A DNA stretch of 45,221 nucleotides from positions 1 through 45,221 of the forward strand of contig JAMORJ010000024.1 of NCBI GenBank assembly GCA_027063595.1, given 5' to 3'. The first letter of the stretch is position 1; each line of letters starts with the position of its first letter. The notes beneath the pieces were generated by a model that was not told the origin of the DNA, did not search any database, and saw nothing but the letters and a program-made list of their open reading frames with translations. Shown here piece by piece: positions 16,038 through 19,491 of the stretch. The translations under genes were made by a program, and so were the position numbers. Source of the stretch: Nautiliaceae bacterium. Lineage in GTDB: Bacteria; Campylobacterota; Campylobacteria; Campylobacterales; Nautiliaceae.

Positions 16038-16089
16038 GTTTATGTTAGGTTTATTTTAAGGGAATATACTTTTTTAAAAAAGGTATCAA

Positions 16090-16737
16090 ATGAGAATTTT
16101 GCTTATAGAAGATGATAGGGATTTAAATGAGACTATTAAAGAATTTTTGGAATTAAGCGGTTTTGAAGTAATTAGTGTTTTTGATGGAGAAGAAGGATTG
16201 AGTAAGGCTTACGAAGAAAATTTCGATTTGTTAATAGTTGATGTGAAATTGCCAAAAATAAATGGATTTGAATTGGTAAAAGAGTTAAGAAAAACAAAAA
16301 ATACGCCGGTTATTTTTTTAACTTCTCTTAATTCTCAAAAAGATATAGAAGAGGGTTTTTTAAGCGGAGGAGATGATTATATTACAAAACCTTTTTCTTT
16401 AAATGAGTTAAAGCTTAGAATTGAAGCAATTCTTAGAAGGGTTTATGGAAATAGTGAAATTATAAAAATAGGGGATGTTGAGTTTGATTTGAAAAAAGAA
16501 ATTTTGAAAAAAAATGGAAAAATAGTTCATTTAAAACCAAAAGAGATAAAACTTTTAAAACTTTTTCTAAAAAATAAAGGCAAAATTTTAAGCAAAGAGG
16601 AGATTTTTGAAGAAATTTATGATTTGGAAGAGCCAAATGAATATTCTCTTAGGGTATTTGTTAATAATTTAAGAAAAGTTTTTGGAAAAGAAAAAATAGA
16701 AACAATAAAAAATGTAGGATATAGATTTGTGGGGTGA
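16090..16737 (+). CDS. OmpR/PhoB-family response regulator
   Basis: Receiver (IEDDRDLNE, LIVDVKLPKINGFELV, FLTSL, KPFSLNEL) plus winged-helix DNA-binding domain (RVFVNNLRKVFG...NVGYRFVG). Confidence 0.95.
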   Translation: MRILLIEDDRDLNETIKEFLELSGFEVISVFDGEEGLSKAYEENFDLLIVDVKLPKINGFELVKELRKTKNTPVIFLTSLNSQKDIEEGFLSGGDDYITKPFSLNELKLRIEAILRRVYGNSEIIKIGDVEFDLKKEILKKNGKIVHLKPKEIKLLKLFLKNKGKILSKEEIFEEIYDLEEPNEYSLRVFVNNLRKVFGKEKIETIKNVGYRFVG

Positions 16738-17764
16738 AAAAAAGAGTTTAGTTTTATTTTTAACTACTTATCTAATTTCTATGGTGTTTTTTATAGCCAT
16801 TTTTGATTATTTATATTTTAAGAATATTATGTTTGAAATTTTACAAAATCAAAAAGCTTTAATAAAACAACAATTATTAAACGAAAATTTAAGGTTTAGG
16901 TTTTGGAATAATGAATTTAAGGATTTAAATATAACAATTTATGATGGGAAAATTGTTTTAAAAAAATCTCCTCAAGTTGGAGTATGTGTTGATTATGAAT
17001 TAATTAGAGGATGGAGAAAATTTAAAATAATTGCTTGTAAAGTTTTTGAAGATAGGAAAAAGGAAATTATTTTTAAGCTACTTTTTTATAATGTGGTATT
17101 TTTAGTTTTTGTTTCTATTTTTGCTTATTTTTTGGCAAAGCTTTTTTTAAAACCTATGAGAGATGAAATAAAAAAGCTTGAAAATTTTCTAAGAGATATT
17201 ACTCACGAAATGCAAACTCCAATAGCTATAATAAATTCCAATATCGAGATGCTTGAAATTAAAGGAATTGAATATAAAGAATTTCAAAGAATAAAAAATG
17301 CAGCCAATAGATTATCTGCTATTTTTGAAATGCTTAAATTTTTAAATTTAAAAAGAAAAGAGGTTATAAGTTTGAATTTAAAAGAGGTCTTACTTGAGAG
17401 AATAAGATTTTTTGAGACTCAAATAGAACAAAGAAATTTAAAAATAAAAAAAGAATTAAAAGATGTTATTTTAAATATTGATAAAGAAGATTTAATAAGA
17501 ATCTTTGATAATCTTCTTTCAAATGCCATTAAATATTCGATGGGGGATATTTATATTTATTTAAATGAGAAAGGTTTTTGCGTTGAAAATAAAGGAGAGA
17601 TAAAAAATCCAAAAGAAGTAATTCAAAAATTTGTTAGGGAAAATAAAAGCGAAGGCGGTTTTGGGCTTGGGCTTTATATTGTAAACGAAATTTGTAAATT
17701 TTATGGTTTTAAATTTGAAATAACAAATAAAAATGGATTTGTTAAGGTTTGTGTTTATTTTTAG
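16727..17764 (+). CDS. sensor histidine kinase
   Basis: Two TM segments, H-box DITHEMQTPIAI, N-box DNLLSNAIKYS, G-box GGFGLGLYIVNEI; overlaps the response regulator; TTG start. Confidence 0.93.
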   Translation: MWGEKKSLVLFLTTYLISMVFFIAIFDYLYFKNIMFEILQNQKALIKQQLLNENLRFRFWNNEFKDLNITIYDGKIVLKKSPQVGVCVDYELIRGWRKFKIIACKVFEDRKKEIIFKLLFYNVVFLVFVSIFAYFLAKLFLKPMRDEIKKLENFLRDITHEMQTPIAIINSNIEMLEIKGIEYKEFQRIKNAANRLSAIFEMLKFLNLKRKEVISLNLKEVLLERIRFFETQIEQRNLKIKKELKDVILNIDKEDLIRIFDNLLSNAIKYSMGDIYIYLNEKGFCVENKGEIKNPKEVIQKFVRENKSEGGFGLGLYIVNEICKFYGFKFEITNKNGFVKVCVYF

Positions 17765-17814
17765 TTTATATTGATCTACTATACTTTTAATACAAAAAAT
17801 TAAAGGAGGAAAAA

Positions 17815-18240
17815 ATGAAAAAAGTAGTAATTAGCGTGCTTGTAGCTGCTGGTTTATTTGGTTTTAATTTTAGCAATGCTTCGAATTCAAATTCTACTAC
17901 AAATCAAAATCAATTGCAAGAATATAATTATGGATATGTAGTAGAAGGGAAAGTATTAAGAGCCTATAAAGCTCCAGGTTTTGGTCCAAGAAGATTTGAA
18001 TGGCTTTTTATGGATGTGGAGACAAAAAATGGAATTGTAAAAGTTGGAATTGCTCCAACATTTAGAGTTTCTAATCTTCCTATTAATGAGGGAGATAGAG
18101 TAAGAGTTAATGGTTATACTCCTCCTTATTGGCCAAATGGAGTAATTAAAGCATGGGATATTTATGATGTGAGTCAAAAAAAAGATTATCCAATTGTAGG
18201 TTGGGGACCTGGTAGGAGATGGGGAAGATATTATAGATAA
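17815..18240 (+). CDS. periplasmic OB-fold-like protein, unknown function
   Basis: Signal peptide MKKVVISVLVAAGLFGF; beta-rich core VVEGKVLRAYKAP...GDRVRVNGYTPP; strong AAAGGAGG RBS. Confidence 0.65.
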   Translation: MKKVVISVLVAAGLFGFNFSNASNSNSTTNQNQLQEYNYGYVVEGKVLRAYKAPGFGPRRFEWLFMDVETKNGIVKVGIAPTFRVSNLPINEGDRVRVNGYTPPYWPNGVIKAWDIYDVSQKKDYPIVGWGPGRRWGRYYR

Positions 18241-18250
18241 GGAGAAAAAA

Positions 18251-18388
18251 ATGGAGAGTAAAGATATTTACAAAATAATCCTTTTGGTTTTCCTTTTGTT
18301 TCTTTTATTTCCTTTTATAAAATTTTTGTTTTTTAAATTATTTGGATTTTATGGATTTGGATGCTGTAGGTGTGGTAGATGGTGGTAA
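18251..18388 (+). CDS. 45-aa membrane peptide with Cys/Trp tail, not in supplied ORF list
   Basis: RBS AAGGAG, ATG at 18251; MESKDIYKIILLVFLLFLLFPFIKFLFFKLFGFYGFGCCRCGRWW. Confidence 0.6.
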   Translation: MESKDIYKIILLVFLLFLLFPFIKFLFFKLFGFYGFGCCRCGRWW

Positions 18389-18395
18389 AGGAAGT

Positions 18396-18488
18396 ATGAT
18401 GAGAAGATTTTTAGTTATGTTAATGATGGTGGTAATTTTATTTATTGTAGGATGTGTTTGTAGAGGTTCTTGTTGGAGGTGTTGGTAG
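18396..18488 (+). CDS. 30-aa membrane peptide with Cys/Trp tail, not in supplied ORF list
   Basis: RBS AAGGAAG, ATG at 18396; MMRRFLVMLMMVVILFIVGCVCRGSCWRCW; its TAG overlaps the GTG of the next gene. Confidence 0.55.
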   Translation: MMRRFLVMLMMVVILFIVGCVCRGSCWRCW

Positions 18489-18808
18489 TGAAAAAATGGA
18501 TTGATTTAGTATTGTTTTATTTTACAATAATTTTAATTTTTAGCGGGATTGTACTTTATATTATGCCTCATGGTCGTATTGCTTATTGGAGCGGATGGAA
18601 ATTTTTATGGATAGATAAGGATGGGTGGGATAATATTCATGTAGTTTTTGGTATTTTTATGAGTATTTTTGTAATTTGGCATGTTGGAATTAATTGGAAG
18701 ATAATGAAAAAATATCTTTTAAAAAAAGAATCTTTTATAATTGCTTTGGTTTGTATAGTTTTTATATTTGGCAGTGTTAAAAATATTTTTCCGTTTAGTT
18801 TAGTTTAA
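18488..18808 (+). CDS. DUF4405-like membrane protein (cytochrome b561-like)
   Basis: GTG at 18488 (overlapping the previous stop, GGAGG upstream) gives MKKWIDLVLFYFTIILIFSGIVLYIMPHGR...; TM helices with conserved His (NIHVVFG, IWHVGINW). Confidence 0.72.
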   Translation: MKKWIDLVLFYFTIILIFSGIVLYIMPHGRIAYWSGWKFLWIDKDGWDNIHVVFGIFMSIFVIWHVGINWKIMKKYLLKKESFIIALVCIVFIFGSVKNIFPFSLV

Positions 18809-18816
18809 TTATTTCT

Positions 18817-19239
18817 TTGGAAGAAAAAATAAAATCCTCTTATAATTTTCAAGCTCCAATTATTCCTCATGCCGAACTTTTAACGTTAAAGGATTATTGT
18901 AAAAAGGTAAATATTCCTTTAAGTTTAGCAATGGCTAAATTGAAATCAAAAAATATTAAATTTAATGAAAATTGGACTTTAAAAGAAATAGCTAGAAAAA
19001 ATAATTTAGCTCCTTTAGATATTGGCAAAATAATCTTTTCTCCAGTAAATATGGGTGGTTATGGATATGGAAGGATGACTTTAAAGGAAATTTGTAAAAA
19101 ATTTAATTTGAGTGAAAAAAAATGTTTGGAAAAGTTGAAACGACAAAAAATTAATGCTAGTTTGAATGAAACATTAAAAGAAATTGCTTTAAAAAACGAT
19201 CTTTTTCCAGTGGATATTATGAATTTCATTAAAAAATAA
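18817..19239 (+). CDS. tandem-module protein (two ~50-residue helical repeats), partner of DUF4405 protein
   Basis: Repeats TLKDYCKKVNIPLSLAMAKLKSKNIKFNENWTLKEIARKNNLAPLDIGKII and TLKEICKKFNLSEKKCLEKLKRQKINASLNETLKEIALKNDLFPVDIMNFI; TTG start, weak RBS. Confidence 0.6.
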   Translation: MEEKIKSSYNFQAPIIPHAELLTLKDYCKKVNIPLSLAMAKLKSKNIKFNENWTLKEIARKNNLAPLDIGKIIFSPVNMGGYGYGRMTLKEICKKFNLSEKKCLEKLKRQKINASLNETLKEIALKNDLFPVDIMNFIKK

Positions 19240-19272: not shown

Positions 19273-19491
19273 ATGGTTAGTGGAGTAAACTTGAATGCTC
19301 AATGTATTCCGATGGGAAATGTTCAATGTTCAAAAAATGAAACTATAAAGGCTAAACAATTACAAGAGCAATTTCAAAATCAACAATTACAACAGAAAAT
19401 ACAACAGCAAACTCAACTACAAAATCAAATTCAACAGCAGCAGCAAATACAACAGCAGTTTTTGCCAATAGGAATTAATATTTATGCTTAA
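19273..19491 (+). CDS. small glutamine-rich protein
   Basis: 72 aa with 24 Gln; AAAGGAGG RBS and a TATAAT-like element just upstream. Confidence 0.55.
   Translation: MVSGVNLNAQCIPMGNVQCSKNETIKAKQLQEQFQNQQLQQKIQQQTQLQNQIQQQQQIQQQFLPIGINIYA

Follow-up and report, generated by a model that had tools for sequence, protein, structure and literature searches.

The DNA analysed here, a 45,221-nucleotide stretch from a Nautiliaceae bacterium (the window), carries a two-component system (TCS) followed by a tight run of small genes. The first gene, at 16090 to 16737 on the forward strand, encodes an OmpR-type response regulator (RR; Pfam Response_reg, 6.4e-27, and Trans_reg_C, 3.6e-17). It overlaps by 11 nucleotides the gene for a sensor histidine kinase (HK; 16727 to 17764) with HisKA and HATPase_c domains and a short periplasmic sensor domain containing two cysteines (VGVCVDYE and IIACK), so that a receiver and winged-helix regulator is paired with its kinase as in the OmpR family. 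Fifty nucleotides beyond the end of the kinase gene begins an open reading frame (ORF) for a secreted OB-fold protein (17815 to 18240), which is followed by two tiny ORFs, pep1 (18251 to 18388, 45 aa) and pep2 (18396 to 18488, 30 aa, or 29 aa from 18399), then by a DUF4405 ORF (18488 to 18808) and an ORF for a tandem helical module (18817 to 19239), all five on the same strand and within 1.5 kb. An earlier note on this DNA had described a two-component pair with five tightly spaced ORFs; the coordinates, overlap and spacing hold, but the count of five separate proteins does not, since two of the ORFs are parts of one broken gene. An NCBIfam scan assigned the RR and HK to no named equivalog, and the OB protein, pep1, pep2 and the module ORF have no family match above cut-off in Pfam or NCBIfam. 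The locus is real, regulated and uncharacterised, and what had been taken for a five-protein complex is better described as a two-component regulon in which effectors can be exchanged and one gene is broken. Below, G000 denotes the window's own genome, G001, G002 and so on the genomes of relatives, and L numbers denote loci.

The promoters bear on how these genes are controlled. A direct repeat, GTTTA-N6-GTTTA-N11-TANNNT, precedes both the RR gene and the OB gene in most of the relatives that keep the locus, and in upstream alignments it is seen as GTTTA-N6-GTTTA-N11-TATAAT before the RR gene and before OB or DUF2202-OB genes, with constant spacing in front of RR and OB. The exact pattern occurs only twice in the window, where 0.31 occurrences are expected even with one mismatch allowed. 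One copy, a putative RR binding box plus -10 element (GTTTATGTTAGGTTTATTTTAAGGGAATATACT, 16038 to 16070, forward strand), forms the promoter of the RR-HK genes and is also present in G001, G002, G005 and G013; the other (GTTTATTTTTAGTTTATATTGATCTACTATACT, 17753 to 17785, forward strand) overlaps the end of the HK gene at the putative effector-operon promoter, a position conserved in nine genomes compared. Across 21 genomes of the family the exact pattern was found 27 times vs 9 for a reversed control, and by our count 19 of the 27 stand before RR, OB or DUF2202 genes, including DUF2202 in genomes of the genus g3 (G008, G017, G018 and G019). An 11-bp period and an overlap with the -35 region are typical of OmpR-family activators, and direct-repeat boxes at both the regulator's own gene and its targets also fit that family. 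Desulfurobacterium-like loci, described below, usually carry an NtrC-type RR. Of 20 such loci, 15 have a sigma-54 -24/-12 element scoring 12 or more of 13.8 ahead of the operon, including four without an adjacent TCS. Finding two regulator types at the same operon argues that inducible control by a two-component system belongs to how this operon works. Together, the conserved boxes and, independently, the sigma-54 promoters lend strong support, at the level of sequence, to control of the operon by the adjacent two-component system, as had been proposed; the two boxes themselves are new to this analysis.

The two tiny ORFs have also gained support. Both are preceded by ribosome-binding sites. 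Pep1 consists of a single hydrophobic stretch and a Cys-rich tail, GFGCCRCGRWW. It directly follows the OB gene in the same-genus genomes G002, G004 and G005 and is 60 to 67% identical across them; 22 positions are invariant, and Cys accounts for three of these. Between the window and G004, pep1 differs at 17 of 30 third codon positions and at 12 of 60 first and second positions. Besides G000 and G004, the matches to pep1 listed for the order were weak and are put down to chance; G002 and G005 were not among the matches listed. The complete pep1-pep2 pair is found in G002 and G004, and the contig of G005 ends inside pep2. Pep2 starts at ATG 18396 or 18399, after AAAGGAAG, and not at TTG 18342. 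In the window it has a lipoprotein-like signal ending ILFIVG-C, with the tail CVCRGSCWRCW; its counterparts end LFFSG-CCCKCCY in G004 and IIFTG-CCRCCH in G002. The copies vary in length, and in each the hydrophobic stretch ends in Gly-Cys before a short Cys-rich tail. Read by eye, the lipobox (IVG-C, FSG-C, FTG-C) falls at the same place, the -3 residue being Phe in two, and the stretch looks like a putative lipoprotein signal. Because both ORFs are retained at the same place in same-genus genomes and variation is highest at third codon positions, the substitution pattern of coding DNA, pep1 and pep2 are judged genuine from these comparisons, in line with the earlier note.

The remaining two ORFs must be considered together. 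In intact relatives, searched with the module ORF, DUF4405 and module form one open frame of about 255 to 285 aa, and the two window ORFs align end to end, without overlap, on these one-piece proteins. A single DUF4405-module frame of about 255 to 280 aa is absent from the window, being lost between 18794 and 18817; the halves are in different frames, with the change at a 5-bp tandem repeat, TTTAGTTTAGTTTAA (18794 to 18808). The module ORF, previously listed as a protein of its own, is therefore rejected as such, since it is the second half of the DUF4405 protein in intact relatives, and no ribosome-binding site of its own was seen. The start codon of the DUF4405 half, GTG 18488, overlaps the stop of pep2, and its ribosome-binding site, GGAGG, falls within the last pep2 codons. 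Since both halves are otherwise open, either the break would be recent or the DUF4405 half alone has been kept; it may also be an assembly error. A programmed frameshift is not favoured, no slippery heptamer being visible by eye. Further weak matches to the module (E about 1e-4) were also discarded, five that were read out being parts of an unrelated, conserved protein of 200 to 235 aa, which looks like a thiamine-phosphate-synthase type enzyme.

The DUF4405 assignment itself is secure (Pfam E=3.8e-17, 63 bits vs a cut-off of 26.7 bits), as is the membrane protein first suggested, and the two core histidines, H55 and H69, are invariant in 25 of 25 sequences. A studied member of the family binds heme b and resembles the ferrosome protein FezC (PMC11334425), and archaeal and Campylobacterota examples have been noted as cytochrome-b-like (PMC5898192, PMC7755780). 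Together with the conserved histidines, this upholds the idea of a redox component, and by analogy the window protein would bind heme. In the AlphaFold model of an intact same-genus homologue (pLDDT 91.4), three long membrane helices precede pairs of short helices, and by positive-inside reasoning the module is predicted to be periplasmic. No solved structure significantly matches the intact model. Neither the module's Pfam HTH/sigma-4 matches (E > 5e-4, all below cut-off) nor its sigma-factor fold matches (E no better than 0.06, TM-score at most 0.2) are meaningful; in the model it comes after the three membrane helices, on the periplasmic side. DUF4405 cytochromes (PF14358) and FezC share with the window protein the domain and its heme-ligand His. 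However, the published cases stand beside ApbE or flavinylated proteins, or have six helices, whereas the protein described here has three helices and a C-terminal periplasmic tandem module, lies by a TCS and OB or DUF2202 genes and, in the window, is broken. No ferrosome or apbE/FMN-bind genes were recognised by eye among the neighbouring ORFs, no genome-wide search having been made. Another parallel is SMUL_1540 of S. multivorans, also in the Campylobacterota, a 111-aa stand-alone three-helix DUF4405 protein of comparable size near two-component genes, but it is a single transcript and no OB, peptide or module partner is reported (PMC7755780). In G031, which belongs to another family of the order, a further RR-HK pair comes after a DUF4405-module gene (L028 5562-8322).

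The OB protein, proposed earlier as a secreted OB-like protein, is borne out by modelling. A five-strand OB barrel is predicted after a signal peptide recognised by inspection, the core of the AlphaFold model has a pLDDT of about 90 to 97, and the model resembles OB domains in the PDB, for instance that of TiaS (Foldseek E 2.5e-4). PDB sequence searches with the OB protein and the module as queries gave nothing significant, and the OB protein was not found on plasmids. Matches to an OB profile (alignment A3) occur in 7 of 397 genomes of the window's phylum, all from the same family. For the phyla to which a Desulfurobacterium genome and a Desulfofervidaceae genome belong, the counts are 18 of 136 and 13 of 395, respectively, several of the latter 13 being weak.

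Comparison across relatives shows a fixed frame with changing contents. Upstream of the system are MoaA, SIR2-type, small-protein and GGCT genes and downstream are NUDIX, PrfA and S20 in the window and G002; G001 has the same genes upstream, together with NUDIX, and of the other family members whose contig extends far enough, most share part of this arrangement. In G001 and the Nautilia-type genomes G010 and G013 the order is TCS, DUF2202-OB fusion, DUF4405-module, DUF2202. In G003 it is TCS, two DUF2202 genes and DUF4405-module, in G002, G004 and G005 it is TCS, OB, pep1 and pep2 as far as the G005 contig extends, and in g3 DUF2202, OB or both stand together with TolC, an adaptor and a MacB-type ABC exporter. 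In the window, OB and the peptides occur alongside the broken DUF4405-module gene, and no DUF2202 was found in its genome. The alternative cargoes occupy one chromosomal position in same-genus genomes. In the Desulfurobacterium-like loci the usual order is NtrC-type RR, HK, DUF2202-OB (sometimes with two OB domains) and DUF4405-module, followed by PqqD-like, ATP-grasp, PLP decarboxylase and urea-transporter-fold/M23 genes. DUF2202 is related to MJ0754, a solved ferritin-like protein (PDB 3q4n, E 1.9e-64). Relatives of the window locus carry it fused to a window-type OB domain, but theirs is secreted, OB-fused and operon-linked, and it is absent from the window genome. In the literature collection searched, no paper on DUF2202 or on the present gene set was found.

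The kinase adds a further layer of variation. Its sensor region is 55 to 57% identical to g3 kinases and 28 to 39% identical to those of its own genus and Nautilia-type genomes, and the flanking MoaA and SIR2 genes are closest to the window's own genus; a g3-like sensor between own-genus flanks makes the locus a mosaic. The sensor (16727 to 17160 in the window), of the g3 type with two Cys and unlike that of its own genus, points to an apparent exchange within the locus. Other variation was seen in passing. In G013, ArsR-like and TehA-like genes lie between HK and DUF2202-OB (L021 5629-6962). Downstream of the module, a small Q-rich protein, MVSGVN...IYA, is encoded at 19273 to 19491 on the forward strand behind a strong ribosome-binding site; this ORF, like the boxes, was not in the earlier note. 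It is probably a diverged relative of proteins of 100 to 111 aa at the same locus in unrelated genomes (L189 4027-4359, L127 5970-6272, L128 5373-5708 and L134 7505-7834), with which it has the termini MVSG[VI]N and [IV]YA in common.

A second operon may belong to the same regulon. A third exact box in the window genome (G000:C59:6648-6680, minus strand; L179) precedes an operon of PqqD, ATP-grasp, PLP-decarboxylase and urea-transporter/M23 genes, all of which also come after DUF4405 in the Desulfurobacterium-like loci. In nearly all of 16 genomes checked the PqqD operon has a related box, RTTWAC-N5-RTTWAC, ahead of it, weakest in G009. This is suggestive of a link to the window RR. However, the box is also seen in genomes in which no such kinase was found and may there serve a different regulator, and a clean attribution to the window RR was not accepted as settled. 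Urea does not support growth of N. profundicola (PMC2628731).

We read the locus as a two-component envelope metal- or redox-stress module with swappable effectors, a reading to which we give a probability of about 0.45. The choices would be a ferritin-like protein, a b-type cytochrome, Cys-rich peptides or a TolC-ABC pump, and it is the occurrence of these at one regulated position that leads us to infer a theme of excess periplasmic metal or oxidant. Two-component control is well supported; the signal and chemistry that follow are proposed. The kinase would sense a periplasmic insult, its Cys pair suggesting metal or thiol redox. The phosphorylated RR would bind the GTTTA direct repeats, standing in for a -35 box, and switch on both the RR-HK pair and the effector operon. 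Effectors of the ancestral type would be a DUF2202 (ferritin-like)/OB protein that is secreted and a DUF4405 heme-b membrane protein, linked to quinol and bearing periplasmic helical modules, which may jointly buffer or redox-cycle periplasmic metal or oxidants. In the window lineage the DUF2202 part would have gone, leaving the OB protein alone; two Cys-tailed membrane peptides, likely thiol metal-binding effectors, would have been added; and the cytochrome gene would be in the course of loss. A membrane complex of all five ORFs, the earlier proposal, is no longer tenable, since two ORFs are one broken gene and peptides and cytochrome occur independently in relatives. Several points weigh against the stress-module reading. 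The sensor domains are divergent (28 to 57% identity), and different lineages may therefore respond to different signals; the role of DUF2202 cannot be directly invoked in a genome that lacks it; the structure matches of the OB fold are generic; and a similar box adjoins another two-component system in G001, which indicates that related regulators may share it. At that site (L180 2630-2662, G001:C1:292629) the box lies between the other system and an ABC exporter/lipoprotein-sorting-like gene set.

Care must be taken to weigh this reading against others. A possible, if unlikely, alternative is a general envelope stress response of the Cpx or Zra kind, to protein misfolding, cell-wall damage or toxic compounds, in which the signal would be something other than metal, with the OB protein and peptides as envelope accessory factors and the pump expelling a toxic compound. 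CpxRA and ZraPSR likewise control small periplasmic or envelope factors from direct-repeat or sigma-54 promoters. The NtrC-type kinase scores with AtoS/ZraS models, g3 genomes have a TolC-MFP-MacB-like pump, and the linked operon has an M23/urea-transporter-fold gene. The RR half-sites read in reverse also resemble the CpxR half-site GTAAA, although the CpxR box has a period of 10 rather than the 11 of the window boxes. However, all equivalog scores, including those of the window RR and HK, are far below cut-off, placing neither in CpxRA or ZraSR and arguing against orthology; no CpxP or ZraP is found in the window; and a heme-b family protein, a ferritin-like protein and poly-Cys tails would be unusual effectors of folding stress. 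Somewhat less probable again is a quinol-fed periplasmic scavenger of peroxide or oxygen (or NO), in which the DUF4405 cytochrome passes electrons to DUF2202/OB, the system is decaying in the window and the peptides are unrelated newcomers. Strict anaerobes and microaerophiles at vents need defence of the peroxide or oxygen type, and the DUF2202-OB/DUF4405 pairing is conserved in nearly all Desulfurobacterium-like loci examined and in G001, G010, G011 and G013. A scavenger is harder to reconcile with the window genome, which has no DUF2202, and with G002, which keeps TCS, OB and peptides with neither DUF2202 nor DUF4405.

The peptides could alternatively be sensing leaders whose translation controls the downstream DUF4405 gene, as for the copper leader peptides CruR and CutF (PMC9426467, PMC9973294), which are likewise small, Cys-containing, exported and upstream of a metal or redox gene. 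The Cys-rich nascent tails and the DUF4405 ribosome-binding site inside pep2, with its overlapping stop and start, would suit such a role. However, the window peptides have no DUF2946 and no visible RAPP or proline-rich arrest motif, and in G002 and G004 the operon ends with the pair, beyond which lies a convergent NUDIX gene; no DUF4405 follows, and nothing is left downstream to control. The leader role is thus improbable, the weakest of the alternatives. Extending the stress-module reading, a bolder and doubtful version is of an undescribed two-component envelope system with interchangeable effectors, common to Campylobacterota and Desulfurobacterium-type vent bacteria. Here the lipid-anchored mini-peptides (6 to 11 residues with four to five Cys, e.g., CCCKCCY) would be metal traps replacing the ferritin-like/cytochrome pair, and the same RR would drive the PqqD/ATP-grasp/decarboxylase operon, which may make a small metal-handling molecule.

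Under the stress-module reading, four families so far uncharacterised, namely DUF2202, the OB protein, the mini-peptides with Cys tails and the DUF4405-module protein, would come together in a single regulon that has a defined box and can be tested in cultivable, non-pathogenic vent bacteria. Should the peptides prove to be thiol traps anchored in lipid, they would rank with the smallest lipoproteins for which a function has been proposed. The locus captures one effector set replacing another at a fixed chromosomal position, and it may represent a rapidly changing form of a metal- or redox-stress module that is conserved in unrelated vent bacteria.

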